Of a DNA stretch of 64,000 nt, positions 1 through 59,483 are shown in pieces. The DNA lies in contig NC_010617.1 in the NCBI RefSeq assembly GCF_000010285.1, positions 310,001-374,000 on the forward strand. The letters are read 5' to 3'. The notes under the pieces were generated by a model. It saw only the letters and a program-made list of their open reading frames with translations. It did not search any database and was not told the DNA's origin. Origin of the DNA: Kocuria rhizophila DC2201 (GTDB lineage: Bacteria; Actinomycetota; Actinomycetes; Actinomycetales; Micrococcaceae). Numbering within the stretch: position 1 is the first letter of the stretch; each line of letters opens with the position of its first letter. A program made the position numbers and the translations under genes.

Positions 1-565
1 CCACGGCCTGCGGCTGGAAGAAGCGGTACGCGTCGAAGTGCGAGCAGCGGATCCGGTGGCTCTGCACCACGGCGTCCGTGCCGCTCGCGCCCAGGCGCAG
101 CGCCGCGTTCTCGTGGCGCACGCCGTTCTCCTCCGCGCGGTAGGCCATGGCCCACTCGTGCAGCCCGAAGCAGTCGAACGTGCCGGGCTTCGCCGCGGTG
201 TTCGCCAGGATCTCGCGCGTGAACCTCACGGCCGTCTCCCGCTTGGCGAGGAACGCGCGCGCATCCACGACGACGCCGCTCGCGCCCTCCCGCACGCCCG
301 GCGCCGTGGGCTCTGCGGCGGTCGCGGGGCGGTAGAACTTCCAGTCCGCACGCTCGGGGGCGTCCAGCAGGACGACCCCGGGGCCCGGGTGCCAGCGGGT
401 GAACTGCGCGGGGGAGAGCGTGTAGTAGGTGAAGAGGAAGTCCTCCACAGGGTGCTTCTCCCCGCGGGAACGGCGGTCCAGGAACGGTTCGGTCCAGCGG
501 GAGACCCGGTGCCGGTGGGCCCGTTCCCTGCGGGTCCACTCCTCACGGGTGAGGACCTCAGGCAC
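1..565 (-). CDS. 3-methyladenine DNA glycosylase-like protein (3' part lies outside the window)
   Basis: The first 188 or so codons of a leftward gene whose end is beyond the window edge. The translation starts PEVLTREEWTRRER and contains HPVEDFLFTYY, RWHPGPGVVLLDAPE, FDCFGLHEWAMAY and SHRIRCSHFDAYRFF. As I recall, these blocks mark an actinobacterial family that databases label '3-methyladenine DNA glycosylase', although the true biochemistry of that family is poorly established. I chose the GTG at 565-563, which overlaps the 3' end of the upstream MarR gene by 8 nt, so the two are probably translationally coupled. A copy of the dispersed motif (269-279) is read as GVVVD. The family call is fairly secure; the enzymatic function is not. 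Confidence 0.6.
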   Translation of the reverse strand, partial: MPEVLTREEWTRRERAHRHRVSRWTEPFLDRRSRGEKHPVEDFLFTYYTLSPAQFTRWHPGPGVVLLDAPERADWKFYRPATAAEPTAPGVREGASGVVVDARAFLAKRETAVRFTREILANTAAKPGTFDCFGLHEWAMAYRAEENGVRHENAALRLGASGTDAVVQSHRIRCSHFDAYRFFQPQAV

Positions 566-1217
566 GGGTGCCGTCCTGCGCGTTCTCCTTCGAGGTGACG
601 ATCAACAGGTGCATCTCCTCGTTGAGCCGCTGCACCTGCTCCGCGGTGACCCGCAGCCGCTGCATCATCTCCTCCGGGACCTGCACGGCCCGCTCCCTCA
701 GCGCCGCCCCCTCGGGTGTGACGGTCACGGCCAGGGCGCGCTCGTTGCCCGGGTCCCGCTCCCGGGTGATGAGCCCCCGGGCCTCCAGGCGCTTGAGCAG
801 CGGGGAGAGAGTGGCCGAGTCCTGCATGAGGTCCTCGCCGAGGTCCTTGACCGTGCGCGGGTGGCGGTCCCACAGGGCCAGCATCACCAGGTACTGCGGA
901 TGGGTCAGCCCCAGCGGCTCCAGGACCGGGCGGTAGCTGTGCACCACCATGCGCGAGGCCACGGACAGGGAGAAGCACAACTGGTTGGACAGCGCCAGCG
1001 GGTCGTCGGCCGGGTCCTGGGGCGGGACGGTGCCCTGGGCTGGGGCGGCGTCCCGGTGGTCGGGGGAGGCCACGGGGTTGCGTGCCGCAGCGGACGGGGC
1101 CCCGTCCGCCGGGCCCGGCGCGGCTGCGGGGGCGTGTGCGGAACCCGCCGCGGCACAGGGACCGGGCGTCGCGGCGTCGTCGTTCCCGACGCCCAGGGGT
1201 GCGGTGTCGCGGGTCAT
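558..1217 (-). CDS. MarR-family regulator, OhrR-like
   Basis: A 219-residue MarR protein. The winged-helix part (about residues 75-215) has LSNQLCFSLSVASR, YRPVLEPLGLTHPQYLV, DSATLSPLLKRLEARGLI and NERALAV. The cysteine in LCFSL sits where OhrR family repressors carry the peroxide-sensing Cys, so organic-hydroperoxide sensing is a reasonable inference, although no ohr gene is adjacent. The first 75 residues are Ala/Pro/Gly-rich and look disordered, which is unusual for MarR. Either the true start is downstream or this is a lineage-specific extension. The extension carries one copy of the dispersed motif (about 1171-1181, read NDDAA). The gene begins 14 nt after lysC stops and runs into the glycosylase-like gene, suggesting an operon. 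Confidence 0.75.
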   Translation of the reverse strand: MTRDTAPLGVGNDDAATPGPCAAAGSAHAPAAAPGPADGAPSAAARNPVASPDHRDAAPAQGTVPPQDPADDPLALSNQLCFSLSVASRMVVHSYRPVLEPLGLTHPQYLVMLALWDRHPRTVKDLGEDLMQDSATLSPLLKRLEARGLITRERDPGNERALAVTVTPEGAALRERAVQVPEEMMQRLRVTAEQVQRLNEEMHLLIVTSKENAQDGTRA

Positions 1218-1231
1218 GGGGTGCGCCGGGG

Positions 1232-3354: not shown

Positions 3355-6300
3355 TCACCGGCCGGTGTCGTGCGACCGTTCGTCGATCAGCATGCCACCC
3401 AGGATGCGCTCGATGGCGGCCTTCCCGTACAGGGCGGAGTCCTCGAGGGACTCGTCGTCGGCTCCGGGAACGAAGTTCTCCTCGTCCACGCCCGGGCTGC
3501 GGGTGCTCGGCGGGGCGATGCCCGGGGAACCGCTGGTGGCCGCGGCAATGGCAGCGGCGTGGCGCTCCCGCCAGCCGCGCCGCTGTCCTCCGGCGGGCGA
3601 GGGGGTGGCCCCGCCGTGTGCCGAGGGGCTCGCGGACTCCCGGCCGGACGCGGTGCGCTCCCCGGCGCCGCCCCCGCCCCCGGGGGTGCGGTGCGGATCC
3701 GGGCGGTCCCCGTCCCGCACGGGCCCCGAGCCGTCGCCCCGACCCTCGGGGCGGCGTCCACGCCGCGGGTACGACGACGCCGCGGGCCCCGGTTCGTCGT
3801 ACATGTCCGCCGGGGGCTCGTCCTCCGGGGGAGGGGGCGGCTCCTCAGGGCTCCAGTACTCGGGGCCCCGGTCCGGTCGGGCGCCCGCACCACCCGGGGT
3901 GACGCCGCCCATGCCCTGGTCCCGGTGGTTCTGGTCCCCGGTGCTCTGGTTCTCGGTGCTCTGCTCCCCACGGTGTTGGCCCCCCCGGCCCTGGATCCCG
4001 CTGCTTGGGGCCCCACTGCCCGGGGTCCCGCCGCCCGGGTTCTGGGCTCCACCGGAGTGCGGACGGCTGCCGTCCGCGGGGGTGTTCTCACCGGGTGCCG
4101 GGGGAGATGCGTCGGGGCGCTCGGACGGCCCGCCCTGCACTGCGTCCTGCGGTGCCTGGTGCTCCGTGGGCGCCTGACTCGGGGACTCGGGACCCTGGGC
4201 GGAGCCGGGCGCGGTGGCCTGCCCCGACCCGGGCTCAGTGGCCTGCCCCGACCCGAGCGCGGTGTCGGACTCCGGCCCGCGCCCCGTGCTGAATCCCGAG
4301 CCGGGCCCCGTACCGGAGCGTGGTGCAGTGGTGCTGTCGGTTCCGGCGGCCTCCCCGGACGGCGCGGCAGCGGATTCCGAGGCACTGGCCCGCGCGCCCG
4401 TGGAGGTGCCGCTCTCTTCCGCAGAGTGCTCCCCGGTGCCGGACCGGTCACCACCCGTTCGGGTGCCGACCCCCGGCTGGGGAATGGGCGCCACGGACCA
4501 CGAGGTGACGGGTTCGTCGTCGTCGCCGGACGGCTCTCGGTGAGTTTCCTGCGATGCGGAGCGGCCGCGCTCCTCCGACCGGCCCGCCCGCCGATCCTGC
4601 CCCCGGTCGCTCCGCGAGGGCCCCGAGGAGGCATCCCGCGCGGGGGCGGTCGACGCGTCCCTCGACGCGGGGGACGCGCTGTCCTGGCCACCCGAGGGGT
4701 TGCTGCGCCGTCGGTTCACGCCGAAGCCCTCCGGCTCCCGGAAGTAGTCCGGCTGCTCCTGGGATGAACCCGGGCCACCGGTGCTCCTGGGGGCCGGGCC
4801 GCGCCCACCGGAACCGCCGCCGCGCGGGTCTCCGCCCGAGCCCGGGGGTGGGCCTCCGGCGGGGCCGCCGTGCTGTCCTCGCGTGTCCCCCGGGCGCACG
4901 GCCTCCACCGCGCAGTCCAGCCCCACCACGTTCTGGATGGCGGTGCGGACGTCCCCCTCGAAGCGGGGGAAGTTCATGATGTCGCCGTCACCCTCGAAGG
5001 CAATGCGCAGCGTGGAGTTCTCGTAGGAGATGGGCGTGCCGCGCACCGTGATGGCCCACGCCACGCGGCGGATCTCCGCGAGGGCGGAGACGATCTCCGG
5101 CCACGAGGAGCGCAGCAGCTCCAGCTCGCCGCTGGTGACGTCGCTCGCCGCGGTGGTACCGGCCGCGGCACCGTCGTTCACACCGTCTCCCGCGCCCTCT
5201 CCAGCGCTTCCAGTGGAGGGCGACGGCGCGGCGGGGTCCCGGTCGTCCGACGGTGCGGTGTCCGGTTCGCCGCGGGCGCCGGAGGATGCCCCGGTCTCCT
5301 CGCCGGGGGTGGCGGCGCGGTCCTCTCCGGGGGCGGTGGCGTGGGACGGGGCGTCCGAACCCCGGGCGTCGTAATCGCGCCCACGAGAACACTGTCCGTC
5401 GGAGCGCGGCGCGGACTCCCGGCCGTCCGGTCTGTGCGCGTCCGCACCACCGCGCGTGTCATCCAAGCGCTGGACGCCGGAACGTGACTGCGCCCCGACG
5501 GTGTCCTGGGCGTCGTCGGGCCGGGAGGGCGTCGAAGACGCTGGCGACTTCGTCGGGTCGGCGGGTGCACCGGTGGCCGGGGAGCGCTCCTGCCCCGCGG
5601 CGTCGTGCTCGGTGGTGGTGCCGTCCGCGGGCGGGTGGTTGCCCTGGGGTCCGCGCTCACCCTGCGGAACGGGGTCACCCGCGGCGGGGTGGTCGCTGCC
5701 GCGGGGGTTCTCGGCCTCGTCCTCCGGGATGGACGGCTCGGCGATGTCCGGGGTGGTCAGGGCGGAACGGCCCGGCTGCGAGCCGTCCTGCCGGACGGGG
5801 CCGGACGGGGCAGGGTCCGCGGCCTCCCGTGCGGGTGCCGCGGAGGCGTCGGACGAAGGGGAGTCGGGCGCCACGGGCGCCATGGCGTCCGCACCGGGTG
5901 CGTGGGGCGCGGCCGGGTCGACCCCGTCCGCCGCGCCGGGCGCCGGAGGAATGGAGGGCCCACCGGGCCGGATGCCCGCGCCCCGGGGAATGCTCAGCCG
6001 GCGTTCCAGGCGGTCCACGCGGGAGGTGATGCCGCGGGTGGTGTCATCCGCGGAGGGCAGCAGGATGCGGGCGCACAGCAGCTCCAGGTGCAGCTGCGGG
6101 GAGGTGGCTCCCGTCATCTCGTTGAGCGCCTCGTTGGTGATGTCCGCGGAGCGGGAGAGCTCCGCGGCGCCCAGCTGGGTGGCCTGGTTGCGCAGCCGGT
6201 TGATCTGGTCCGTGGGCATCCCGTGCAGGATGTTGGCCGCGGAGTCCGGGACCGCGTTGACCACCACGAGGTCCCGGAAGCGCTCGAGGAGGTCCTCCAC

Positions 6301-7149: not shown

Positions 7150-7216
7150 ACAGAAGACTCTAGCGGGGGTCTCAGACGCCCTCAGCGGGCCCGCGAGCAT
7201 GGGGAGCCAGGAACGT

Positions 7217-14529: not shown

Positions 14530-14576
14530 GCGCCGCAGGGAACGGCGCGTGCGGCGTCGTCGTGCGCTGCGCTCAG
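14526..14576. terminator. Convergent hairpin carrying a dispersed motif copy
   Basis: The arms CTGAGCGC-GCAG and CTGCGCTCAG (with a 3-nt bulge) overlap the stop codons of both converging genes. The loop contains the motif GCGGCGTCGTC (14551-14561). Confidence 0.45.
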
Positions 14577-15439
14577 CGGCCGAGGTGGTCGAGGTGCGCG
14601 AGCTGGGCCGCGATGGAGTGCTCGGCCGCGCGGCGCACCTCGGCGGGGACGTCCGGGTAGACGGCGTCCGTGACGGTTTCCACGCTCGCGCGCTCGCCCA
14701 AGTCCGCGACGACGCCGCGCACCTGCTCCAGGCGCTCCAGCCGGTGCTCGGCGAGCTCGTCGCACGCGTCCTGCAGGCCCGGCAGGGGTGCACCGTGGGC
14801 GGGCAGGCCCATCGCGCCGGAGCGCCTGCCCAGGCGTTCGAGGGAGCGCAGGTAGTCGCCCAGGGTGCCGTCCGGGTGGTCGATCATGGTGGTGCCGCGG
14901 CCCAGGACGGTGTCCCCGGTGAGGATGGTCTCGGGCTCGTCGTGGTGCAGCAGGAACGAGACGGAGTCCGAGGTGTGGCCCGGGGTGGCGAGCACGCGGA
15001 TGCTCACGCCTGCCGCCAGCACGAAGTCCCCGTCCCGCAGAGGCTCGCCGCTGTCCCGGCAGAACTCGGGCAGCGCGGCGCGCACGGGGGCGCCGGTGAT
15101 CTCGTGCAGGCGGTCGATGCCGTCCGTGTGGTCCCTGTGGCGGTGCGTCACCAGGATCAGCACGACCCTGCCGGTGGCGGCCACGGCCTGAAGGTGGTCC
15201 TCGTCCAGGGGTCCCGGGTCCACGACGACGACGTCCGGCCCCGGCCACTCGCCCCGCCCCTGCGCGGACGGGTGCTGCCCGTAGTTCGGGTGCTCGGGCC
15301 CTGAGCCGGGGGCGGAGAGGATCCAGGTGTTGGTGCCGTCCAGGGTCATGGGCCCGGGATTCGGCGCAAGGACCATCCCGGCGCACGCGCTCACGCGGTG
15401 CAGCACGCCGGGGACGGTGTAGTCGGGCTGGGCGCTCAC
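14573..15439 (-). CDS. MBL-fold metallo-hydrolase
   Basis: 288 residues from GTG 15439. Metallo-beta-lactamase fold: NPGPMTLDGTNTWIL, DPGPLDEDHLQAV, the zinc motif THRHRDHTDG (HXHXDH), ATPGHTSDSVSFLL, LTGDTVLGRGTTM and LPAHGAP, with a C-terminal helical HTH-like tail (RLEQVRGVVADLGERASV). This architecture matches the LACTB2/endoribonuclease-like group common in actinobacteria. The substrate is not predictable, though RNA or a thioester are plausible. A motif copy (14708-14718) is read GVVAD in the tail. The start is moderately uncertain because no strong ribosome-binding site is visible. Confidence 0.8.
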   Translation of the reverse strand: MSAQPDYTVPGVLHRVSACAGMVLAPNPGPMTLDGTNTWILSAPGSGPEHPNYGQHPSAQGRGEWPGPDVVVVDPGPLDEDHLQAVAATGRVVLILVTHRHRDHTDGIDRLHEITGAPVRAALPEFCRDSGEPLRDGDFVLAAGVSIRVLATPGHTSDSVSFLLHHDEPETILTGDTVLGRGTTMIDHPDGTLGDYLRSLERLGRRSGAMGLPAHGAPLPGLQDACDELAEHRLERLEQVRGVVADLGERASVETVTDAVYPDVPAEVRRAAEHSIAAQLAHLDHLGR

Positions 15440-15781
15440 GCTCGCGGGTCCCGTCCCGTGGCTCCCACGCGGACGACGACGCCGCTGCCGCCGGCGCGCG
15501 CGGCCCCTGTCACCGTGCGCGCGGCGCGGCAGAGCGGTCCCGTGGTGGGGACGCGCCTGGTCTCGCTCAACACGTGGGGCCCTCGAACCTGCGGATCCCT
15601 GAACCCCCGCCTGCTGCGGCAGGAGAGCCGGGTGGACCCACCGGGGCCGTGGATCCGCGTGCAGAGGACTCCCGGCGGGTTGAAGAAGTTCACGGAAGTC
15701 TAACGCGGACAGCGGGTGTCCCGGTCCGTGCATGCCGCTGTCCAGGGTCACGCTCCCAACGTTTGCAGGGTGACGATCTCG
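15440..15781. other. Gene-free stretch
   Basis: No convincing gene. It holds one dispersed motif copy (15475-15485). The short frames on both strands have no recognisable domain and no ribosome-binding site. Confidence 0.5.
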
Positions 15782-17408: not shown

Positions 17409-17445
17409 CTGGCCCGGCGGGACCAGCCGGCCCCGCGGCGTCGTC
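17409..17445. terminator. Convergent hairpin plus motif copy
   Basis: Six-bp arms GGCTGG/CCAGCC with a 10-nt loop, then the motif GCGGCGTCGTC at 17435-17445, between two converging genes. A weak terminator candidate. Confidence 0.35.
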
Positions 17446-18790: not shown

Positions 18791-18825
18791 GACGACGCCG
18801 CTCGGGGCCACCGCGCGGCGTCGTC
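18791..18825 (-). terminator. Inverted pair of the dispersed motif after the IclR gene
   Basis: GACGACGCCGC (18791-18801) and GCGGCGTCGTC (18815-18825) form an 11-bp perfect stem with a 13-nt loop, about 105 nt beyond the IclR stop. Confidence 0.55.
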
Positions 18826-23355: not shown

Positions 23356-24528
23356 TCAGCGGTCAGCCGAACGCGCGGCCGCCTCCAGCACGGTCCACGC
23401 CTGCACCTGGGTGCTCAGCTCCACGGGCGCGCCGGTGCGCTGCGCCTGGTTCGCGTGCTCGGCGGGCTCCGGGGAGAACACCGCCACGGTCTCGCCGCCG
23501 TCCGCGCCCGGAGTCGAGAAGTCCTCGTCCGGGTCGAACTCGCGCCGCCCGTCCCACAGGGCGTCCGCGGTGTCGCACACCAGCGCCTTCGCCGTGCGGC
23601 GCGTCTCGGCATCCACGTCGGACGACGACGCCGCCTCGCCCAGGTACCGCGCCAGGATCCCCGTGAACAGTCCGGCATCCCCACCGCCCTGGCCCGTGAG
23701 CACGGGAGCGCCGTGCGGGCCGGGGACCGTGAACTGCTGCGCCGCTCCCTGCACGAGCTGGGAGGCGCGGGAGAGCCAGAGCTCGCGCTGGGCGGCGTCG
23801 TCCGTCACGCGCGCCAGCGCGAGGGCGGCACCCAGGGCGGGGCCGCTGTTGTAGGTGTAGACGTGCGGGTCCACCGCCGTGATCTCCGAGCCGGAGCCCG
23901 CGGCGACCATGCGGATGCCGTCCAGGAACACGCCGCGCTCGGCGTCGAAGAGGGTGTCGAACAGCCACGTGAGCAGCGCGCGGGCCTCGTCCACCCGGTG
24001 CATCCGCAGGAAGCTCAGTGCCACCGGGGCCGTGGACGCGGTGTTCTTGTAGTCGCGGGTCATGTTCCACCACGCCCCGCCGCCCAGGTTCTCGTCGCAC
24101 CCCGCCTCGAGCCGCTTGGCCAGAGCGACGCCGTCGTCCTGCACCGTGCGCGTGGTGCGGCCCGTGGCGGCGACGTCCTCGTGGCGCAGCCTCCCCAGCG
24201 CGAGAGACAGCCATGCCATGTCGTCGAAGAACACGTTGTTGGTCACCCGGCCACCGCTGTGCACGGCGATGCCCCGCAGCAGCTGGTGCGCGCGGGAGCG
24301 GGCCAGGGCGGCGTCGTCGTGGTGACCGGCCGCGCGCTCGCGGGCGGCGGCGTCCACGAACGCCTCCAGCAGGTGCGCCTGCCACCAGTAGTGCCACGGG
24401 CCGCGGCGCGGGTGCGGGAACGCGACGGCGCCCAGGTACGTGCCCGGCACACGGAACGCGCGGGAGCCGAACAGCCGGTCCACGGAACGGGCGGCCGTGG
24501 CGGCGCGGTGGGCGGGGGGCTCGGACAT
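23356..24528 (-). CDS. Glycoside hydrolase family 76 protein
   Basis: 390 residues from ATG 24528, with AGGAG upstream; the open frame extends 25 codons further without support. (alpha/alpha)6-barrel enzyme of the GH76 type: GTYLGAVAFPHPRRGPWHYW, the acidic pair in TNNVFFDDMAWLSLAL, ENLGGGAWWNMTRDYKN, HVYTYNSGPALGAALAL and DAGLFTGILARYLG. Family members cut alpha-1,6-mannans. No signal peptide is visible, so it probably acts inside the cell, for example on mannan-type lipoglycan fragments. Three dispersed motif copies fall inside (23624, 23792, 24308), read as AASSS, DDAAQ and DDAAL. Confidence 0.75.
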   Translation of the reverse strand: MSEPPAHRAATAARSVDRLFGSRAFRVPGTYLGAVAFPHPRRGPWHYWWQAHLLEAFVDAAARERAAGHHDDAALARSRAHQLLRGIAVHSGGRVTNNVFFDDMAWLSLALGRLRHEDVAATGRTTRTVQDDGVALAKRLEAGCDENLGGGAWWNMTRDYKNTASTAPVALSFLRMHRVDEARALLTWLFDTLFDAERGVFLDGIRMVAAGSGSEITAVDPHVYTYNSGPALGAALALARVTDDAAQRELWLSRASQLVQGAAQQFTVPGPHGAPVLTGQGGGDAGLFTGILARYLGEAASSSDVDAETRRTAKALVCDTADALWDGRREFDPDEDFSTPGADGGETVAVFSPEPAEHANQAQRTGAPVELSTQVQAWTVLEAAARSADR

Positions 24529-27493: not shown

Positions 27494-27517
27494 CACGTAC
27501 CGCACAGCCGACGACGC

Positions 27518-33300: not shown

Positions 33301-35732
33301 CGGAACCGCTCCACCATGAGCGTGCGGTCGTCCGGCACGTGCTCGGTGGCCTCCCGCTGCTCCGCGAGGTAGGCCAGCAGGTTGTCCTGGGCCCACTCGT
33401 CCAGCCCGGACACCGCCAGGCGCTCGCGGGCCTCGGCGTTCGCGGCACCGGCCAGCTCCCGGGTGAAGCGCCCGGCGGCGCGCCCCAGCTCCACGGGCCG
33501 GCCCAGCCCGTCCCCGTGCCAGAACGGCAGCTTGCCCGGAACACCCGGCGCCGGGGCCACGACCACCCGGTTGTGGGTGATCTCCTCGATCCGCCAGCTG
33601 GAGGCGCCCAGCGCGATGATGTCCCCCACGCGGGACTCGTAGACCATCTCCTCGTCCAGCTCGCCCACGCGCTTGGGGGACTTGGAGTCCTGCTCACCCA
33701 CCAGGAACACGGGGAACAGTCCCCGGTCCGGGATGGTGCCGCCGCTCGTGGTCGCCAGGCGCAGCGCTCCCGGGCGGGCCTGCAGCGTGCCCGTCTCGCG
33801 GTCCCACACCAGTCGCGGGCGCAGCTGTGCGAACTCGTCCGAGGGGTACCGCCCGGCGAGCAGGTCCAGTACGGCGTCGTACGCGGAGCGCGGCAGGGAG
33901 CGGAACGGGGCGCTGCGGCGCACGGTGTCGTACCAGGCCTCCACGTCCACGTCCTCGGCGGCCACCGCGGAGACCGTCTGCTGGGCCAGGATGTCCAGGG
34001 GGTTGGCGGGCACCGAGAGCGGTTCCAGGTTTCCGGCGAGCATCTGCTCCGCGATCACCGCGGCGTCCCGCACGTCCCCGCGGTGCTTGGGGTAGATCCG
34101 CCCGATCGACACCTCACCCACCTGGTGCCCGGCACGCCCCACGCGCTGCAGCCCGGAGGCCGCCGAGGGCGGGGACTCGATCTGGACCACCAGGTCCACG
34201 TGGCCCATGTCGATGCCCAGCTCCAGGGACGAGGTGGCCACCACGCACCGCAGCCGCCCGGTTTTGAGGTCCTCCTCGATCAGGCTGCGCTGGTCCTTGG
34301 ACACCGAGCCGTGGTGGGCGCGCGCGAGCACCGGGGACGCGCCCTCGTGCCGGTTGCTCTGCCGGGGGATCGCGGCGGGCTCCCGCTCGTCGGACGCGGG
34401 GCGGGCGACGCCGCCCGGGCCGTCGGGCGCGCCAGTCCCGTCCCCGGGGGTGCCGAACAGCGCTGCGTCGCCGGGCGCTCGCCCTGGGTGGCTGGGACCG
34501 TCCGAGGGCGCACCGGGGGTGCCCGGCGTGTCGTCCCCCTCGACGGCGAAACCGTCGAGGCCTTCGGATCCGGTGTCCTCGTCCCCGGCCGCGCGCCGAG
34601 CGCTCTCCGCGAAGAGGTGGTTCAGTGCGTCCCCCACGGCCACGGGATCCCCGGAGCGTTCACCACTTGGGAACTGCTCCGCGGCGTTCTCCAGGCGGAA
34701 CTCGTGGATCTCGTTGAGCCGCGCGGTCAGCTTCTCCGCGAGCCCGCGGGAGTTCGCGAACACGATGGTGGAGCGGTGGGCCTCCACGAGGTCCACGATC
34801 CGCTCCTCCACGTGCGGCCAGATGGATGCCGTAGCCTGCTGCCCCGCACCGTCCAGCTCGGCGTCCAGGGAGGGGGAGCCGTCCGATGACGGCGACGCCG
34901 CCGCCCCGCCCAGCACGGTCATGTCCGGGATGGGCACGGAGACCGTGAGGTCCCAGTCCTTCTCGGACGGCGGGCGCACCACGTCCACGGGCTGGGAACC
35001 GCCCAGGAATCCGGCCACGGTGTCCACGGGTTCCACGGTGGCGGAGAGCCCGATCCGCTGGGCGGGCTGCTCCAGCAGGTCGTCCAGGCGTTCGAGGCTG
35101 ACGGCCAGGTGCGCGCCGCGCTTGGTCCCGGCCACCGCGTGCACCTCGTCGATGATCACGGTGTTCACGTGGCGCAGGGTCTCTCGCGCCTTGGACGTGA
35201 GCATGAGGTACAGGGACTCGGGCGTGGTGATGAGGATGTCCGGCGGGTGGGCCAGCAGGGAGCGGCGGATCGCCTGGGGGGTGTCGCCCGAGCGGACCCC
35301 CACGGAGATCTCCGGGGGCTCACCCCCGGCGGCCCTGACCGCCTGGGTGATCCCGATCAGGGGTGCGCGCAGGTTGCGCTCCACGTCCACGCCGAGGGCC
35401 TTGAGCGGGGAGATGTAGAGCACCGAGGTGCGGTCCTCGGACGGGGCGGCCGCGGCGTCGTCGTCGCCGGAGGAGCCCGGCGCGGTGGGGCCGCTCGGCG
35501 AGCTCCCGTCAGGGGAGCCCGCGGGGGACTTTGCCGCGAGCAGCCGGTCGATGGACCACAGGAACGCCGCGAGCGTCTTGCCGGAACCGGTGGGGGCCAC
35601 CACGAGGGCGTGGTGGCCCGCCGAGATGGCCTCCCACGCGCCGCGCTGGGCCGCCGTGGGCCCGTGGAAGGCGGCGTCGAACCACCGCGCGGTCGCGGGG
35701 GAGAAGAGGTTCAGGACCGAGTCAGGATCCAA
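30396..35732 (-). CDS. lhr: Lhr-type DEAD/DEAH-box helicase
   Basis: 1778 residues, longer than most actinobacterial Lhr (about 1500-1550). Residues 1-520 hold both RecA domains: QRGAWEAI, Walker A APTGSGKTLAAF (46-57), ITTPESLYLML, Walker B IIDEVHAVAGTKRGAHL, GLSATVEP and the domain-2 motifs VVATSSLELGIDMG and QRVGRAGHQVG. A Lhr-core winged-helix part and the long actinobacterial C-terminal extension follow. Lhr unwinds DNA:RNA and is linked to repair. The extra length sits in disordered insertions at about 70-100, 390-470 and 1070-1140. These hold most of the gene's five full dispersed motifs and one 10-of-11 copy (30823, 31159, 31857, 32374, 32503, 35452). The ATG overlaps the lipoprotein gene by 11 nt. 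Confidence 0.92.
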   Translation of the reverse strand: MDPDSVLNLFSPATARWFDAAFHGPTAAQRGAWEAISAGHHALVVAPTGSGKTLAAFLWSIDRLLAAKSPAGSPDGSSPSGPTAPGSSGDDDAAAAPSEDRTSVLYISPLKALGVDVERNLRAPLIGITQAVRAAGGEPPEISVGVRSGDTPQAIRRSLLAHPPDILITTPESLYLMLTSKARETLRHVNTVIIDEVHAVAGTKRGAHLAVSLERLDDLLEQPAQRIGLSATVEPVDTVAGFLGGSQPVDVVRPPSEKDWDLTVSVPIPDMTVLGGAAASPSSDGSPSLDAELDGAGQQATASIWPHVEERIVDLVEAHRSTIVFANSRGLAEKLTARLNEIHEFRLENAAEQFPSGERSGDPVAVGDALNHLFAESARRAAGDEDTGSEGLDGFAVEGDDTPGTPGAPSDGPSHPGRAPGDAALFGTPGDGTGAPDGPGGVARPASDEREPAAIPRQSNRHEGASPVLARAHHGSVSKDQRSLIEEDLKTGRLRCVVATSSLELGIDMGHVDLVVQIESPPSAASGLQRVGRAGHQVGEVSIGRIYPKHRGDVRDAAVIAEQMLAGNLEPLSVPANPLDILAQQTVSAVAAEDVDVEAWYDTVRRSAPFRSLPRSAYDAVLDLLAGRYPSDEFAQLRPRLVWDRETGTLQARPGALRLATTSGGTIPDRGLFPVFLVGEQDSKSPKRVGELDEEMVYESRVGDIIALGASSWRIEEITHNRVVVAPAPGVPGKLPFWHGDGLGRPVELGRAAGRFTRELAGAANAEARERLAVSGLDEWAQDNLLAYLAEQREATEHVPDDRTLMVERFRDELGDWRVVLHSPFGTPVHGPWALAVRARLDERWGLDASAQAADDGIVLRVPATDEEPPGAELFLFEPEELEQIVTEEVGGSALFASRFRENAARALLLPRADPGKRTPLWQQRQRSAQLLDVARKYPQFPIILETVRECLQDVYDVPALLQLQRDLAGRKLRVVETTTDSPSPFARTLLFGYVAQFLYEGDSPLAERKAAALSLDPALLNELLGRAELRELLDPEVIETTVLQLQRLAPDRRLRGVEGAADLLRLLGPMTADDAALRLRGDGSVPAGSPAAGSASAGAGAAPPDAPAPSTGASGAASSAALEAPGAAASARIGDEGGPEDEEDTGRAEDPAYRAISPEAARELLDALVDTNRAIVLRVGGREVYCAVEDAARMRDALGQPLPMGVPLAFLEPVADPVGDLVSRYARTHGPFSVAEAAQALSLGPAVVESALRSLARQRRVSEGAFRPSGDPAASDSEWCDIEVLRTLRRRSLAALRADVEPVDPQAYATFLPAWQHAVKGHQLRGLDGVLTVIDQLAGVPIPASAWEPLVLAQRVVDYRPAMLDELMATGEVVFSGAGSLGGEDGWVAFHLAESAELSLPPVAQLDATADALDSALERELLTVLQGGGAYFAWQLVQPLAAAGVSVDMAQLRTALWNLLWAGLITNDTYAPVRALISGGHSAHKTPKRPGRSRSAGRRGAARLRAVGRGPAGFDPAGSADDAAPSGTRVVRASGGGEERTTAGRWSALRPEPLNPTVRAQAQAELLLDRYGILTRGPVAVEDVPGGFSTVYKVLRALEDAGRARRGYFIEGLGAAQFTQPATVDVLRSFTDDDAARKADPQVLALAATDPANPYGAALDWPEAVVLESSTKHRPGRKAGAVVVLVDGALTLYLERGGKTALAFASDPALLHLAAEAVAALVQRKAVDSLVVEKVNGDSVLSSEELVTAVRDGLLAGGFYQTPKGVRMRAPVGGGRG

Positions 35733-36495: not shown

Positions 36496-39400
36496 GGTGA
36501 CAGTGTCCTACGTTTCGTCCGCAATGCGGCACACATCACTTCCGCGAGGTGCACCGCGTCGGCCCCGGTGCCCTGGGAGATCTGCGTGCGGCACGAGAAA
36601 CCGTCCGCCAGCACGATCGCCCCGGGCTCGGCGGCCCGGATCGCGGGGAACAGATTGCGCTCGCCGAGGGTCTGCGAGATCTCGTAGTGCCCCGGCTCGA
36701 AGCCCCAGTTCCCGGCCAGCCCGCAGCACCCGCCGCCCACCACGGAGGTGTCCACGCCCAGCTTCTCCAGCACGGTGAGCTCCGGGGAGTAGTCCCCCAT
36801 GGCCTTCTCGTGGCAGTGCACCTGGCACACGGCGCTGCTCGGCCCCTGCCGGGTCTCCAGCGGCTCGAACGGCCAGTCCCCGCCGGCCTCCAGGTGGGCC
36901 GCCGCGAACTCGCCCAGGGTCCGGGTGAGGCCCTTCACCGCATGGGCCCGCGGATCCTCGGGCAGCAGCTCGGTGATCTCGTGCTGCAGCATCACCGTGC
37001 AGGACGGCTCCAGTCCGATCACCGGGTACCCGGCCTCCAGCAGCGGTGCCATCACGTCCAGGGTCTGGCGCAGCACCTTCCGGGTCATGTCCAGCTGGCC
37101 CGTGGAGTGCCACGTGAGCCCGCAGCACACGTCCCCCATGGGCATCAGCACGCGGTAGCCCATGGCCTCCAGGACCTCCACGGCGGCCTTGCCGGGCCCG
37201 TCCGCGGAGTAGGTGGTGAACGTGTCCGGCCACAGCACCACGGACGGGCGCCCGGCGGGGTCCGCGCCCGCCACCCCGTCTGCCAGGGCGCCGCGGGCCG
37301 ACGACGCCGCACGGCCGCCTCCGCGCGCAGCCGCACCGGCGGCGTCGTTCCCCGCAGCATGCTGCCCGGCAGCGAGGGCCCCAGTGCCCGTGGGCGCTGC
37401 TCCCGAGGGGGCCACACCCCGCGCGGTCCCCGGGTGGGCGGCGTCGTGGCCCGCGTGACGGGAGCGCGCGCGGAACCACGCGGTGAACGGGGTGTCGTTG
37501 AAGCGGATCATGTCGCGGCGCGGTTCGATGCCACCGAGCTTCTTGGTGAGCGCCTCCACGGCCGGGATGCGCTCGAGGGCGTTGACCGCGCGCAGGGAGC
37601 CGGGCACGCGGGCCGCGATCCGCATGAGCCACGGCATCCACCCCATGGTGAGGTGCGCCATGGGCCGGCGGTCCCGGCCGATGAACGAACGGAGGCCCTG
37701 CCGGAAGTGGTGGTGCAGGAACTCGGCCTTGTAGGTGGCCATGTCCACGTTCACGGGGCACTCGGTGGCGCACGCCTTGCACGAAAGGCACAGGTCCAGG
37801 GCCTCGTAGGTCTCCTGCGACTTCCAGCCGTCGGTGAGGTGCTCGCCGCGCAGCATCTCCGCGAGTGAGCGCATGCGGCCTCGCGTGGAGTGCACCTCGT
37901 CCCCGGTGGCGTGGAAGGACGGGCACATCGCACCGGAGTCCGAGCGGCACGCTCCCACGCCCACGCAGCGGTTCACGGCCTGGCCGAACGAGCCGTTGTC
38001 GTGGGAGAACGCGTGCACCGGGGTGAGCTCGAACGTGCGCGCACCCGGTCCGGGGCGGATGCCACGGTCCAGCGGCTCCGGATCCACCAGCACACCGGGG
38101 TTGAACAGGCCCTCGGGGTCGAAGATCCGCTTGAAGCGCGCGAACGCGGCCAGTGCCTCCGGTGTGTAGATGGTGCTCAGCAGTTCGGAACGGGCGCGGC
38201 CGTCCCCGTGCTCTCCGGAGACCGAACCGCCGTAGCGGTGCACCAGCTCGGCGGCCCGCTCGATGAACGTGCGGTACTGGGCCACTCCGTGGTCGGAGTT
38301 GAAGTCGAAGGAGATGCGGATGTGCACGCAACCCTCGCCGAAGTGCCCGAACGGTATGCCGCGCAGACCCATCTCGTCCAGCAGGGCGTAGAGGTCCCTC
38401 AGGTACTCGCCCAGCCGTGCCGGGGGCACCGCGGAGTCCTCCCACCCGGGCCACGCCTCGCCGCCGTCCGGCAGGCGGGTCACGATGCCTGCCCCGGCCT
38501 CTCGGATGTGCCACAGGGCCCGGGCCTGCGTCGGATCCCCGACCACCACCGAGTCCACCACCGTCTCCTCGACCAGCGCGGGGAGTCTCCGGGCGGCGTC
38601 GTAGGCCTGCTCGGGGGTGTCCCCGGAAACCTCGCAGTACAGCCAGCCGCCGCCGCGCGGGAGTTCGGAGCCGGCGTGCTCCTGGCCGGGGCGGGTGCGC
38701 AGGGCGTCCAGGAGGTCCGAGCCCATGCCCTCGATGGTGGTCACGCCGGAGACGCGGAGCGCGGGTGCGGCGCTCGCGGCGTCGATCGCGTCCTGGAACC
38801 CGAGGACCGCCAGCGCGGTGTGCGCGGGCCTGGCCACGAGCTTGACCGTGAGCTCCGTGATGATCCCGCACGTGCCCTCGGTGCCCGCGAAGGCCTTGGC
38901 GGTGTCGAAGCCGTTCTCGCCCAGCAGGTAGTGCAACCCGTAGCCTGAGACCTGCCGGGGGAACTGGCCCAGCTCGGTGCGCAGCATGGCCAGGTGCTCG
39001 TTGCGCAGCCGCTCCAGCTGCGATGTCAGTGCGGGCTCCGAGGTGCCGCCCGCGTCCAGGGTGACCAGGCGGCCGTCGGCCAGCATGACAGTGACCGACA
39101 CGAGGTTCTCCGCACTCGTGCCCCACGCGACCGAGTGGGAGCCGCACGCGTTGTTGGCCACCATCCCGCCCACCGTGCAGCGGGAGTGCGTGGAGGGGTC
39201 CGGTCCGTAGGTCAGGCCGAACTCGGAGGCAGCCTCCCGCAGCTGGTCACAGATCACCCCGGGCTCGATCCGCGCCGTGCGGGCCTGCGGGTCGATCTCC
39301 AGGATGCGGCGGAAGTGGCGGGAGGTGTCGATCACCAGTCCCTCGCCGATCGCGTTGCCCGCCACGGACGTGCCGCCGCCGCGGGGGACCACGGACCAGC

Positions 39401-48956: not shown

Positions 48957-48996
48957 CGGCGCCGCGGCCGCACGTGCGCGCCGCCGCGAAGCGTGC

Positions 48997-49031
48997 ACGA
49001 CGCCGCCCGCAACGGTGCCCGGCGGCGTCGT
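48997..49031 (+). terminator. Terminator built from an inverted motif pair
   Basis: ACGACGCCGCC (48997-49007) and GGCGGCGTCGT (49021-49031) form an 11-bp perfect stem, 41 nt after the regulator's stop. Confidence 0.6.
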
Positions 49032-49067
49032 CACCCGGGGTGGGCGGCCCGTGACAGACTGGCCTGC

Positions 49068-49838: not shown

Positions 49839-50999
49839 TCAGTGCTTGGCCTCGCACGCTACACCGTCGCCGTCCCCGTCCAGACCCGGGCGGTACCCGG
49901 GGGATCCCGCGTACAGCGGCGCCATCCCGGCGGCGCGGGCCTCGGCGCAGCGGGAGAAGTACACGTCCCCGCCGGGCGCACCCGCACCGGCCGGGGGCTG
50001 CGCAGAAGCCGGCAGCCGGGGTGCGGGCGCGGCCGGGGCGGCGGGTGCCGCCGGCACGGCGGGCGGTGCCGCGGGTTCCGCGGCGGGTTCGTCCGCCGGG
50101 GCCGGAACGGCGCGCGGGCCCGGCAGTATCTGCTCGGGGCACGTGTCCAGCACGCGGATCAGCGCCTGCTTCTCCGCGTCCGTGACCCACAGCTCGTAGG
50201 TCTTCTTCACCGCGATCTGCGTGGCGACGTACTCGCAGCGCTCGCCCCTGGCCGGGGGCAGCCAGGTGGCGGCGTCCCCGTCGGACTTCGCAGTGTTGCT
50301 CGGGCCGTCCACGGCCAGCAGGTTGAGGGGGTCGTTGGCGAGCTCGGTGCGCCGGGCGGCGTCGAGCTGCTGCGCACCCTTCTGCCACGCGTCGGAGAGG
50401 GCCACCACGTGGTCGATCTGCACCTCCGCGCTGGTGTCCCGGCCCGCCGTGAACGCCATGGCCTCCCCCGTGTACGGGCTCAGCAGCGAGCCCGCGGCCA
50501 CCTTGCAGCCGTGCGTGCCCGGCTTCACCTCCACCCCGGTGAGGTCCCGCCGCAGGACGTCGTTGCGGGTGTCGCAGCCGTTGTGGTCCGTGTCCGCCCA
50601 GCGGGGGCCGAACTCGTCCCGCGAGTAGCCGGTCCTGGGCGCGCGGCCCTTCACGGGGATTTCTCCCAGTGCCGCGAGCGCCGTTCCGGGTGCGGCACTG
50701 CGCGTGCGGTCGGAGGGGGACGACGACGCCGTCCCCGCCCCGGCTGCCCCGGTGCGGCTCGCGGCCGGCGTGGGGGAGGGCGCGGGCGGCGTCGTCGTGT
50801 CGGTTGTGCGCGCAGCGGAGGCGGTCGGCGCGTCCGACGAGGGGGCGGACGTGCCCGGGGCGCCGCACCCGGCGAGGGCGACGGCGAGCACCGCGGCCAC
50901 GATGGCGGTGCTGCGGGCGGGGGAGGTGCGGGGGGAAGTCAGGGAGTCCTCGATCCTGGCGGCGCCGGCGGGGCGGCGGTTAACGCAAGGACCCCGCAT
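49839..50999 (-). CDS. Secreted HNH (DUF1524/GmrSD-type) nuclease with Excalibur domain
   Basis: Lipoprotein-type signal (STAIVAAVLAVALAGC, lipobox LAGC) followed by a Ser/Thr/Ala/Pro linker. A DUF1524 HNH nuclease domain comes next: DNNG-like DTDHNGCDTRNDVLRRDL, the catalytic QIDHVVALSDAW, LANDPLNLLAVDGPSNTAKS and RCEYVATQIAVKKTYEL. A Pro/Ala linker precedes the C-terminal Excalibur calcium-binding domain (YFSRCAEARAAG, PGLDGDGDGVACE). It should cut DNA at the cell surface. The start is uncertain: ATG 50999 lies inside the tRNA-Arg terminator hairpin, and no ATG/GTG/TTG is well placed between it and the lipobox. CTG 50942 has GAGGA in front. One motif copy (50786) is read TTPP in the linker. 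Confidence 0.82.
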   Translation of the reverse strand: MRGPCVNRRPAGAARIEDSLTSPRTSPARSTAIVAAVLAVALAGCGAPGTSAPSSDAPTASAARTTDTTTPPAPSPTPAASRTGAAGAGTASSSPSDRTRSAAPGTALAALGEIPVKGRAPRTGYSRDEFGPRWADTDHNGCDTRNDVLRRDLTGVEVKPGTHGCKVAAGSLLSPYTGEAMAFTAGRDTSAEVQIDHVVALSDAWQKGAQQLDAARRTELANDPLNLLAVDGPSNTAKSDGDAATWLPPARGERCEYVATQIAVKKTYELWVTDAEKQALIRVLDTCPEQILPGPRAVPAPADEPAAEPAAPPAVPAAPAAPAAPAPRLPASAQPPAGAGAPGGDVYFSRCAEARAAGMAPLYAGSPGYRPGLDGDGDGVACEAKH

Positions 51000-53271: not shown

Positions 53272-53300
53272 CGCCGCGCGGCCGAGCTGGCCGCGCGGCG
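53272..53300 (+). terminator. Terminator of pckG
   Basis: Perfect 12-bp stem CGCCGCGCGGCC and complement, 5-nt loop, 36 nt after the stop. Its right arm runs into a dispersed motif copy (53295-53305). Confidence 0.7.
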
Positions 53301-53342
53301 TCGTCGTGCGTGCCGACGGACGGCACCGAGGAGAGGAAGACC

Positions 53343-55285: not shown

Positions 55286-55333
55286 GGTACGACGACGCCG
55301 CGCGGCCGGGTGGCTGCGCGGCGTCGTCGTACC
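55286..55333. terminator. 18-bp hairpin from an inverted motif pair between hmp and manB
   Basis: GGTACGACGACGCCGCGC and its exact complement flank a 12-nt loop. Each arm contains the dispersed 11-mer (55291-55301, 55318-55328). Converging genes hmp and manB both end near it, so it can terminate both. Confidence 0.75.
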
Positions 55334-56855: not shown

Positions 56856-58085
56856 ATGGCCGAGTTCCTGAGGATGAGCAACCCGATCCAGCACTACGCC
56901 TGGGGGTCCTGCTCGGTGCTCGCCGACATGCAGGGCCGCCCCGGGCCCACCGAACGGCCGGAGGCGGAGCTGTGGATGGGCGCCCACGCGAGCGCACCGT
57001 CGCGCGTGGAGCTCGCCGGGCAGCAGCGGGGCCTGGACGAGATCGCCCCGCACCTGCCGTTCCTGCTCAAGGTCCTGGCCATCGACGCACCCCTGTCCAT
57101 CCAGGTCCACCCCTCCTCCGACCAGGCACGGGAGGGCTTCGCGCGGGAGAACGCCGCCGGGATCGCCCCGGACGCACCCCACCGCAACTACCGGGACGAG
57201 CACGCCAAGCCGGAGACGGTCATCGCCCTCACGGACATGTGGCTGCTCGCCGGGCAGCAGGAGCCCGGGCGGCTCGCGGAGCTCGCCGAGACGCTGGACC
57301 TGCCGTGGCTCGCTGCGGCGGCCGCCTCCCCGTGTCCCCTGCGCCACGCCCTGGAGCTCGGTGACGACGACGCCGCCGCGGCCGTGCGCGTGTGCGTCAC
57401 CGCGGCCGCCTCCGCACGCGACACGGCGGCGTCCTCACAAGAGGGGACCGGGTCGCTGTCCCCGGAGCAGGGCCCGGCCGAGCGCGCCGTGCACCTCATC
57501 GAGCTGCTGAGCCGGCACCACCCGCAGGACCGGGGGATGCTGGTGGCCCTGTGCATGAACGTGGTGCACCTGGCTCCGGGGCAGGCGCTGTTCACCCCCG
57601 CGCAGCAGGTCCACGCCTACCTCAGCGGCACGGCCGTGGAGATCATGGGGTGCTCGGACAACGTGCTGCGGGCGGGGCTGACCTCCAAGCACATCGACGT
57701 CCCCGAGCTGCTCGCCGTGATGGCGCAGACCCAGGAGCCCGTGGAACTGCTGCAGACCCGCACCGCCGAGGACGGCGCCGTGCACTACCCCCTGTGGGAT
57801 CCGGCCCTGTCCCTCGTGTCCGCGCGGGTGGCACCCGGTGCGCCGCTCGTGCGCGAGGTCGCGGACACCTGCATGGTGCTCGTCACCGAGGGCTCCGTAC
57901 GGGTCTCCGCCACGGCGGGGCCCGAGGACGGCGGCGCGCAGGACGAGGGCACGGCCGCGGCGGCCGGGGAGTCGCTCGTGCGCCTGGGCGGCGCGTGCAC
58001 CGTGCGGATCACCGGCGAGGGGTGTGTGTTCCTCGTGGAGGCTGTGACTCCCGGCCGGCCGCACGGGCCCCGTCTCACCCTTTAG
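56856..58085 (+). CDS. manA: Mannose-6-phosphate isomerase, class I
   Basis: 409 residues from ATG 56856 (ATG 56847 possible; a TACATG box 6 nt upstream would make it leaderless). Type I PMI: NPIQHYAWGS, ELWMGAHASAPS, LPFLLKVLAIDAPLSIQVHP (zinc-site Gln/His), RDEHAKPETVIALTDMWLLA, VVHLAPGQALFTPAQQVHAY and DNVLRAGLTSKHIDVPELL. It converts fructose-6-P to mannose-6-P. A disordered insertion at about residues 165-200 carries the dispersed motif (57366, read DDDAAAAVRV). Divergent from manB. Confidence 0.92.
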   Translation: MAEFLRMSNPIQHYAWGSCSVLADMQGRPGPTERPEAELWMGAHASAPSRVELAGQQRGLDEIAPHLPFLLKVLAIDAPLSIQVHPSSDQAREGFARENAAGIAPDAPHRNYRDEHAKPETVIALTDMWLLAGQQEPGRLAELAETLDLPWLAAAAASPCPLRHALELGDDDAAAAVRVCVTAAASARDTAASSQEGTGSLSPEQGPAERAVHLIELLSRHHPQDRGMLVALCMNVVHLAPGQALFTPAQQVHAYLSGTAVEIMGCSDNVLRAGLTSKHIDVPELLAVMAQTQEPVELLQTRTAEDGAVHYPLWDPALSLVSARVAPGAPLVREVADTCMVLVTEGSVRVSATAGPEDGGAQDEGTAAAAGESLVRLGGACTVRITGEGCVFLVEAVTPGRPHGPRLTL

Positions 58086-58158: not shown

Positions 58159-58707
58159 ATGGACCGGCGGATCGAACGCACCCGCGCGGCAGTGGTGCAG
58201 GCCACCGTGGAGCTGGTGGCGTCCCGCGGTTCGCAGGTCGGGATGACCGAGATCGCTGACGCCGCGGGCGTCAGCCGCAAGGCCGTGTACGAGAACTTCG
58301 GCTCCAGGGACCAGGTGCTGTGCAGCGCCACCCAGAGCCTGCTGGCCACGGTGCCCCTGCGCGTGAGCGCGCTGGACGCCGAGCGGCCGAACCCTTGGGA
58401 CGTGGTGCTCGCGCCCATCGCCGAGCACGTGGAGCAGTTCCGGGACTTCTACCGCGCGGTGCTCTCCGGACCCGGCTGCTTCCTGGTGCGGGACGCCGTG
58501 GTGGACCACGCGGTCACCGGGCTGCGGGAGGTGCGCGGGCGCATCGAGGACCCCCGCGTGCGGGACGCCGGCGAGTGCGACCGCTTCATCGTGCACGGTC
58601 TCGTGGGCGTGATCGCCGAGTCCCTCGTGGCGCAGCCGGGCGTGAGCGTGCAGTCCCTGGCCCACTCCCTCAGTGCGGGGCTCGCGGAGTCGATGAGCTG
58701 CTGCTGA
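58159..58707 (+). CDS. TetR-family regulator
   Basis: 182 residues from ATG 58159, with AGGGAG 6 nt upstream. N-terminal helix-turn-helix RAAVVQATVELVASRGSQVG, MTEIADAAGVSRKAVYENFG. C-terminal helical domain, ending MSCC with two adjacent cysteines that could respond to metal or oxidants; that is speculation. It precedes the NAD(P)-binding protein gene by 113 nt and may control it. Confidence 0.85.
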   Translation: MDRRIERTRAAVVQATVELVASRGSQVGMTEIADAAGVSRKAVYENFGSRDQVLCSATQSLLATVPLRVSALDAERPNPWDVVLAPIAEHVEQFRDFYRAVLSGPGCFLVRDAVVDHAVTGLREVRGRIEDPRVRDAGECDRFIVHGLVGVIAESLVAQPGVSVQSLAHSLSAGLAESMSCC

Positions 58708-58820
58708 GGGCGGGCCCACCACGCCCCCTGCCGGAATAATCACGCCCTCACAGCCGCTGTACGGAGTCCAGGGGCGCGCGAGCACCCCTCACAGATCCGT
58801 TCCGACAGGAAGGACTCACA

Positions 58821-59483
58821 ATGTCCCAGATCACGATCATCGGTGGCCACGGCAAGGTGGCGCTGCAGCTGAGCCGGCTGCTCTCCTCGCAGGGGGACAC
58901 GGTCAACGCCGTGATCCGCAAGGAGGAGCAGAGTCAGGACGTGCAGGACGCGGGCGCGAACCCCGTGGTCGCGGACGTGCAGGAGATGGACGTGGCGGCG
59001 CTGAGCGAGCTGCTGGCCGGGCAGGACGCCGTGGTCTGGTCCGCGGGCGCCGGCGGGGGATCCCCCGAGCGCACCTACGCCGTGGACCGTGACGCCGCCA
59101 TCCGCTCGATGGACGCCGCCGAGGCCGCCGGTGTGAAGCGCTACGTGATGGTCTCCTACATGGGCGCCGGGCAGGACCACGGTGTGCCCCAGGACAACGA
59201 CTTCTACGCCTACGCCCAGTCCAAGGCGGACGCGGACGACCACCTGCGGGCGAGCTCCCTGGACTGGACCATCCTGGGCCCCGGAATGCTCACCGACGAC
59301 GCCGCCACGGGCTCGATCGCGATCGGCAGGGCCGGGGAGGACGGCAACCGGGACACCGCCCGCGGCAACGTGGCACTGGTGGCCGCCAGGGTGCTCGCCG
59401 ACCCCGCCCACACCGTGCACCGCTTCATCGAGTTCGCGGACGGCAGCACCCCGATCGCCGAGGCCGTCGACTCGCTGGACTGA
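58821..59483 (+). CDS. NAD(P)-binding atypical short-chain dehydrogenase
   Basis: 220 residues with AGGA 8 nt upstream. N-terminal dinucleotide motif SQITIIGGHGKVALQLSRLL, then VVWSAGAGGGSPERTYAVDR, DAAEAAGVKRYVMVSYMGAG and the Tyr/Lys pair YAYAQSKADADDHLRAS, followed by DWTILGPGMLTDD. This is the atypical SDR group that includes YtfG/HSCARG-like redox proteins. The substrate is unknown. One motif copy (59295) encodes DDAAT in a surface loop after the PGML motif. Confidence 0.82.
   Translation: MSQITIIGGHGKVALQLSRLLSSQGDTVNAVIRKEEQSQDVQDAGANPVVADVQEMDVAALSELLAGQDAVVWSAGAGGGSPERTYAVDRDAAIRSMDAAEAAGVKRYVMVSYMGAGQDHGVPQDNDFYAYAQSKADADDHLRASSLDWTILGPGMLTDDAATGSIAIGRAGEDGNRDTARGNVALVAARVLADPAHTVHRFIEFADGSTPIAEAVDSLD

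Follow-up and report, generated by a model that had tools for sequence, protein, structure and literature searches.

A dispersed 11-bp word in Kocuria rhizophila and a sister word in related lineages: a candidate recognition sequence of the DNA-uptake type

The 64-kb stretch of the Kocuria rhizophila DC2201 genome (label G000) analysed here, hereafter the window, carries a short word of 11 bp, GACGACGCCGC (designated W), both inside genes and between them. A total of 29 exact copies were found in the window, 13 on the plus strand and 16 on the minus strand, against a mean of 0.39 and a maximum of 4 after dinucleotide shuffling. An earlier note on this DNA had proposed about 29 copies in balanced orientation; the number and the balance agree well with ours, and only its strand counts of 16 and 13 have to be exchanged. 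When one mismatch was allowed, 67 matches were obtained (10.2 in shuffled sequence), of which 38 are inexact, several being overlaps of GAC repeats, so that the about nine near-copies given in the note were an underestimate. Ten of the 29 copies are intergenic by our own gene calls, as had been stated. The core genes of the window (49.4 kb) contain 19 copies and the accessory genes (4.5 kb) none, where fewer than two would be expected. The sites are listed below, where retained means that the exact word is kept at the site in the relative named (herein G022 is K. tytonis, G015 K. tytonicola, G009 K. marina and G001 K. soli).

269..279, plus strand: W, coding
1171..1181, minus strand: W, coding
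3773..3783, plus strand: W, coding
14551..14561, minus strand: W, intergenic; retained in G022 and G012
14708..14718, plus strand: W, coding
15475..15485, plus strand: W, intergenic
17435..17445, minus strand: W, intergenic, adjoining the 3' end of tgt; retained in G022, G005 and G025
18791..18801, plus strand: W, intergenic, left arm of a hairpin (partner 18815..18825)
18815..18825, minus strand: W, intergenic, right arm of a hairpin (partner 18791..18801)
23624..23634, plus strand: W, coding, glycosyl hydrolase 76 family gene
23792..23802, minus strand: W, coding, glycosyl hydrolase 76 family gene
24308..24318, minus strand: W, coding, glycosyl hydrolase 76 family gene
25440..25450, plus strand: W, coding, RluA-family gene
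25495..25505, minus strand: W, coding, RluA-family gene
27510..27520, plus strand: W, intergenic; retained in G022 and G005
28463..28473, minus strand: W, coding
30823..30833, minus strand: W, coding, Lhr-type helicase gene
31159..31169, minus strand: W, coding, Lhr-type helicase gene
32374..32384, plus strand: W, coding, Lhr-type helicase gene
32503..32513, minus strand: W, coding, Lhr-type helicase gene
35452..35462, minus strand: W, coding, Lhr-type helicase gene
37300..37310, plus strand: W, coding
48996..49006, plus strand: one-mismatch W (C at position 1), left arm of a hairpin (partner 49022..49032)
49022..49032, minus strand: W, intergenic, right arm of a hairpin (partner 48996..49006)
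50786..50796, minus strand: W, coding
53295..53305, minus strand: W, intergenic, 59 bp past the phosphoenolpyruvate carboxykinase (PEPCK) gene; retained in G022 and G012
55291..55301, plus strand: W, left arm of a 23-bp hairpin, convergent genes on either side; retained in G022 and G005
55318..55328, minus strand: W, right arm of the 23-bp hairpin (partner 55291..55301); retained in G022 and G005
57366..57376, plus strand: W, coding
59295..59305, plus strand: W, coding

Exact W is missing over two window stretches of more than 10 kb, 3773-14551 and 37300-49022. The window also holds small genes for the signal recognition particle (SRP) RNA and two tRNAs (7214-7310, 43446-43532 and 51026-51098).

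A genome-wide count, which the earlier note had proposed, gave 740 copies of W in the 2,697,540 bases of the single contig, 364 on one strand and 376 on the other, against 14 of the reversed word; the density is 0.27 per kb, lower than the 0.45 per kb of the window. Gene context was analysed in a sample of 464 kb, consisting of the window and 20 stretches of 20 kb, in which genes were called by our own simple codon score, and 'intergenic' herein therefore takes in missed genes and trimmed starts. Under a fourth-order Markov model W has a higher z-score than any other 11-mer with 6 or more occurrences in this sample (122 observed, 5.3 expected). These 122 copies are divided into 43 intergenic, 78 within genes (47 sense and 31 antisense) and one at an edge. 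The intergenic copies stand against 0.25 to 1.04 expected from Markov models of orders 2 to 4, indicating a 40- to 170-fold excess, while for the genic copies permutation of synonymous codons within genes predicted 21.6 sense and 2.2 antisense, and a null conditioned on codon pairs 29.4 and 1.6. The previously proposed enrichment of about a hundredfold needs qualification: within genes the excess is about 14-fold for antisense copies and about 2-fold for sense copies in the Asp-Asp-Ala-Ala (DDAA) frame (43 observed, 21.4 expected), roughly half of the copies in this frame being attributable to normal codon choice. Since the antisense and intergenic copies exceed the codon-aware and Markov nulls, codon usage is not their cause. 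Hundreds of dispersed copies of a short word, beyond codon use and composition, are what the DNA uptake sequences (DUS) of Neisseria and the uptake signal sequences (USS) of Pasteurellaceae display.

Among 27 Kocuria genomes, 12 carry 335 to 823 copies of W (high-W) and 15 carry 15 to 141 (low-W). On syntenic stretches, 27, 29, 26 and 13 copies per 80 kb were found in the high-W genomes G022, G005, G012 and G011 (Kocuria sp. cx-455), 16 per 60 kb in G018 (K. carniphila) and 4 per 20 kb in G025, and the low-W genomes G003, G008, G001, G014 and G020 gave 5, 5, 1, 3 and 1 per 80 kb. In a tree of tgt, for which 11 of the 12 high-W genomes were combined with 14 low-W Kocuria and five outgroup rows, a single branch (support 100/100, present in 100% of 200 bootstrap trees) separates all 11 high-W genomes from the other rows; they form a clade, hereafter the W clade, that takes in DC2201, K. 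tytonis, K. marina and K. carniphila. The tree omits G002 (three fragments) and G019 (no tgt match) from the 27 genomes, some rows carry extra flanking residues, and the Arthrobacter rows are placed beside the W clade with weak support. W counts are 3 to 141 in other genera of the same family (10 genomes) and 1 to 217 in other families (22 genomes), and from these low counts the enrichment is not general to high G+C content, supporting the restriction to a lineage that the earlier note had set against a property of all high-GC genomes.

The anatomy of the word was determined using 166 kb of intergenic DNA from six genomes of the W clade, in which W occurs 88 times against 0.49 expected. Judging from one-base variants, positions 3, 4, 6, 7, 9 and 10 are almost fixed and position 11 nearly so, position 1 admits C (31 copies), and some tolerance is seen at positions 2, 5 and 8, A at position 8 being probably an overlap with a preceding GAC. 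The base before W is C at a frequency of 0.76 in 78 intergenic copies, and C plus W reads CG-A-CG-A-CG-C-CG-C, with a CpG every three bases. Outside the word there is a weak extra preference for A at -2 and G at +14, with few A or T at +12 and +14, and the flanks mostly hold less than 0.4 bit per column.

Intergenic copies are often paired. An inverted near-copy (at most one mismatch, within 60 bp) accompanies 16 of the 43 intergenic copies in the 464-kb sample, and a direct one accompanies only one of 43 (P 6e-5); for the remaining 79 sampled copies the numbers are 12 inverted and 2 direct. The three hairpins pointed out in the earlier note all exist, the one at 48996 pairing a one-mismatch copy with an exact one; the minimum free energies of those at 18791, 48996 and 55291 are -32.9, -29.3 and -53.1 kcal/mol, with z-scores of -3.0, -2.8 and -9.3. 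A known RNA family beneath these hairpins was looked for and discarded, as the Rfam families in the window are SRP RNA and the two tRNAs only. There is no concentration of W between convergent genes, which flank 15 of 40 classified intergenic copies and 27.7 of 77.6 kb of such DNA. As for replication, with the origin set to dnaA at base 1 and the terminus assumed half-way, 56 of the 122 sampled copies lie on the leading and 66 on the lagging strand, and a 75% bias is rejected at 7e-12, in good agreement with the neutral orientation claimed previously. Intergenic excess, inverted hairpin pairs and the lack of replication-strand bias are all properties of DUS and USS.

Retention of exact W at the window sites was compared with that of control 11-mers. 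Intergenic copies are kept at 6 of 10 sites in G022 (control 13%, P 0.0007), 4 of 9 in G005 (7.6%, P 0.003) and 2 of 3 in G012 (6.3%, P 0.011), and coding copies at 9 of 17 in G022 (30%, P 0.04), whereas in five low-W Kocuria only one of 44 is kept. The conservation at orthologous sites looked for on the suggestion of the earlier note is above background for intergenic copies in these three relatives, on few sites, and weak for coding copies, and intergenic retention is not raised at the few sites of the more distant clade members G011 and G018. When coding copies were aligned to the five low-W Kocuria, a gap fell inside the word in 13 of 40 comparisons against 5 to 7% of coding positions (P 2e-7), unevenly by outgroup (G001 0/6, G008 1/8). 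This fits the placement of coding copies in linkers and lineage-specific insertions, as the earlier note had noticed.

A second word was identified outside the W clade, a finding beyond what the earlier note had proposed. Intergenic checks of this sister word were made in K. soli and the Arthrobacter group, together with small Kocuria samples and Rothia loci. In K. soli intergenic DNA (77.5 kb of 578 kb), CGACGACGGCG occurs 16 times against 0.29 expected and ACGACGACGGCG 10 times against 0.05, while W, with one copy against 0.23, is not clearly enriched; coding counts of CGACGACGGCG are 31 and 30 against synonymous nulls of 10.7 and 7.2. At 61 tgt loci of the Arthrobacter group (1.21 Mb), intergenic ACGACGACGGCG was found 25 times against 0.04 and W once against 0.24, and antisense coding ACGACGACGGCG 40 times against 2.4, the copies at these orthologous loci being not all independent. 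Both words, W and the sister word, have a coding background in many high-GC genomes, and since whole-genome counts of ACGACGACGGCG are partly driven by coding sequence, we relied on the intergenic and antisense counts. Dialects following phylogeny on a shared core, known from DUS and USS, are thus seen between the W clade on one side and K. soli with the Arthrobacter group on the other. Three related Arthrobacter phages (130 kb), a small and non-independent control, carry 2 copies of ACGACGACGGCG against 11.5 at host density, 6 of CGACGACGGCG against 17.4, and 6 of W against 2.2. Across the order (297 genomes) counts of the sister word run from 0 to 848, with reversed controls at 49 or fewer, and the maximum is in G135 of another family (444 and 404). 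The genomes G135, G042, G149, G121 (f7), G257 (f13), G171, G259 and G311 (f3) have 403-848 copies of ACGACGACGGCG, and in these genomes of families f7, f13 and f3 the sister word may be present in its strongest form.

Some other words were considered or noticed. GACGACGGCGC was given up as the sister dialect, because its whole-genome counts failed to separate the lineages and ACGACGACGGCG did better, and ranking words de novo in the Arthrobacter set was set aside, as longer, tRNA-gene-like sequences common to orthologous loci dominated the result. Intergenic DNA of K. soli contains a longer repeat with TTTCGCGAGGGTTC, of which the words occur in 13-14 copies in 8 segments. Nine Rothia loci (L152-L157, L159-L161) carry neither W nor the sister word; their intergenic DNA is rich in CGAATGTGCC (11 against 0.10) and GGCGTCCGC (14 against 0.43), which may reflect common descent of orthologous loci or another dialect-like word. 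For G004, a Kocuria of 57% GC, gene calling failed and gave too much intergenic DNA, and no inference was drawn; its loci L039-L041 hold overlapping words such as CTCCCCGCGCCT in about 21 copies each, probably an array of clustered regularly interspaced short palindromic repeats (CRISPR). Overlapping words around GTTCCCTGTCG are present in 14 copies at G008 loci L042-L044, L129-L132 and L278.

When com and pil genes were looked for, as suggested in the earlier note, com and Tad genes were found: the DC2201 genome carries comEC and, next to it, comEA (SLBB and helix-hairpin-helix), and it has two Tad clusters, in which TadA ATPases and TadE-like pilins are encoded. Competence genes are present as in carriers of DUS and USS, yet they are near-universal in the order and hence give weak evidence. 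Both Tad clusters were compared with the loci of nine relatives, of which G014 and G008 contributed one cluster only. Beside the first cluster, the gene at L259:1195-1869, with a weak PTH2 match, is found in the loci of three clade relatives and not in those of six low-W genomes; beside the second, a serine recombinase gene (L260:2896-4281) is not in the loci of the nine relatives. Two candidates for a clade-specific reader were rejected. A clade-specific pilin was dropped because every pilus gene of the DC2201 clusters has a counterpart in low-W Kocuria. A clade-restricted type IVa pilus, an idea prompted by the mention of pilB and pilT in PMC13388538, was dropped because the pilT model was matched weakly by 27 of 27 Kocuria and over the cut-off by none, and no N-methyl pilin was found.

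Taken together, we consider it fairly probable that W is a word for recognition of self-DNA, of the DNA-uptake type and with dialects; most of its predictions that were tested at the sequence level hold, and the interpretation in the earlier note, an uptake-like or nucleoid/repair-recognition sequence, is partly supported; the uptake specificity itself is what we infer. More tentatively, and short of an even chance in our estimate, one word family with the frame CGACGACG-N-CG could be read in lineage dialects by much of the Kocuria and Arthrobacter order, which would amount to sequence-specific uptake by Gram-positive bacteria by means of Tad pili; the K. rhizophila-type clade would then have changed its dialect a single time. 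In our model of W, a component of the competence machinery that binds DNA (ComEA or ComEC with Flp/Tad pili, as in Micrococcus luteus) would prefer fragments bearing W, and DNA of the same kind would then be taken up and recombined more often. Such a preference could by itself accumulate W over time, mostly in freely changing sequence, i.e., intergenic DNA and variable protein segments; two inverted neighbouring copies could also act as a terminator-like hairpin, and different lineages would use different dialects of one frame, GACGACGCCGC or ACGACGACGGCG. The machinery that would read W, the protein presumably doing so and the recombination presumably spreading the word all belong to this conditional part of the model. 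In M. luteus, transformation takes place with Flp pili and both comEA and comEC are present (PMC6370729); its Flp system is by analogy a plausible route for uptake of W-bearing DNA.

Several observations weigh against this reading. Of the 297 genomes of the order, 284 have ComEC and every one has a T2SSE match (294 over the cut-off, with at most 6 candidates scored per genome), so that the machinery neither predicts nor excludes the word; presence of ComEC, TadE or T2SSE was rejected as a predictor for being uninformative. Among the 13 ComEC-negative genomes, three are 0.8-1.1 Mb in size and contain 0-2 copies of the sister word; there are also fragmented drafts, three of them rich in it: G065 has 274 copies, G163 175 and G126 104, in assemblies of 280, 580 and 700 contigs, from which ComEC is perhaps missing through assembly gaps. 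The pilus genes of both Tad clusters, as noted above, have counterparts in low-W Kocuria, and an N-methyl pilin of the Neisseria kind, as ComP is, was detected in none of the 27 Kocuria genomes. Any specificity would have to lie in the sequence of a machinery component that these genomes have in common. In PMC13388538 the competence gene set of K. rhizophila is judged incomplete or highly divergent. The term 'uptake sequence' was absent from four papers on M. luteus competence that were searched for it.

The same holds for some of the sequence data. Retention of coding copies is significant in the nearest relative only and is weak: 5 of 17 are kept in G005 (control 19%, P 0.20), 4 of 14 in G012 (14%, P 0.12), 3 of 11 in G018 (8%, P 0.06; intergenic 0 of 1), 1 of 13 in G011 (7%; intergenic 0 of 3) and 0 of 4 in G025 (24%; intergenic 1 of 2). 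Pairing of ACGACGACGGCG in the Arthrobacter group is weak, with 7 inverted and 3 direct partners for 35 intergenic copies and 7 and 8 for 127 genic ones. The sister word is slightly enriched also within the W clade (CGACGACGGCG in DC2201, 4 against 0.26), and the intergenic samples from G003, G008, G014 and G020, which are small, give no clear signal of either word. The 2245-5918 copies per genome of Neisseriaceae dialects (PMC3630211) correspond to a density higher than the 274 per Mb of W.

The main rival explanation takes W as the site of another chromosome-wide DNA-handling protein with lineage-shifting specificity, either Chi-like for a nuclease of the AddAB, AdnAB or RecBCD type, or bound by a nucleoid, segregation or repair factor. 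Hundreds of dispersed copies, dialects and lineage restriction would follow equally from such a protein. Chi and the FtsK-orienting polar sequences (KOPS) show a replication-strand orientation bias, which W lacks (56 against 66), and neither the inverted pairing nor the intergenic excess is expected of Chi; no such factor was identified, no search aimed at one being made, and we regard this explanation as unlikely. Far less weight is given to the idea that W happens to form the stem of another kind of element, either a hairpin or terminator or a small repeat that is mobile and resembles repetitive extragenic palindromes (REP) or miniature inverted-repeat transposable elements (MITE). The inverted partners at 16 of 43 intergenic copies and the three stable window hairpins are in line with it. 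Elements of this kind are intergenic and conserved past their core, while the flanks of W are weakly conserved, 79 of the 122 sampled copies are not intergenic (78 genic, in several frames, and one at an edge) and 27 of 43 intergenic copies lack an inverted partner; the absence of concentration between convergent genes and of an Rfam family also makes it improbable. Codon or codon-pair bias together with high-GC composition is the least credible explanation, and we give it hardly any weight. It accounts for much of the sense DDAA frame (43 against 21.4; 47 against 29.4 for all sense copies under the codon-pair null) and finds support in the coding background of both words, but as the sole cause it is refuted by intergenic copies (43 against about 1) and antisense copies (31 against 2.2 or 1.6), unless the gene calls are grossly wrong, and sister Kocuria of similar G+C content have few copies of W.

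To our knowledge, Neisseriaceae and Pasteurellaceae are the only groups in which sequence-specific DNA uptake by means of a dispersed genomic word is established. Among the open-licence papers listed in our searches, none was found that, judged from its title and the opening of its abstract, reports a word of this kind in Actinomycetota. If the uptake reading is true, W would represent a third independent case, in Gram-positive actinobacteria and with a different pilus, allowing a comparative test of why uptake words exist, whether through selfish drive, because DNA of kin is preferred, or as a by-product of receptor bias. From the dialects one would predict where gene transfer is hindered and between which species a receptor should have changed, and the word could give a practical handle for transformation of laboratory strains of Kocuria and Arthrobacter.

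Compared with the known systems, W resembles Chi and KOPS in being a dispersed short recognition word and differs in the lack of strand bias, the hairpin pairing and the intergenic excess. The USS of Pasteurellaceae is a dispersed, strand-neutral word with weak extra flank preference, and W is similar in all three respects; the word itself, the phylum and the pilus are different. M. luteus, for which transformation by Flp/Tad pili is described, is of the same family as Kocuria, in which comEA, comEC and two Tad clusters are likewise present. In comparison with the DUS of Neisseriaceae, W belongs to Actinomycetota, is GC-rich with a CpG every 3 bp, is less dense and is accompanied by Tad/Flp instead of type IVa pili, and, as in the comparison with USS, it is known from sequence; since a ComP-type pilin was not found, we do not place W within the neisserial family and describe it as a word that would work alike. 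The DUS is reported to form inverted pairs that act as terminators, to be conserved above average, to be over-represented between genes and to be more frequent in permissive regions of the core genome (PMC2397512), and its dialects are congruent with phylogeny on a fixed core (PMC3630211). The sister word agrees with DUS in enrichment and shows little pairing. W itself agrees in being a short non-palindromic word with hundreds of copies on both strands and inverted hairpin pairs, in its intergenic excess, in its permissive positions and in dialects that follow phylogeny on a fixed core; its retention is above background, on small numbers, for intergenic copies in three near relatives.

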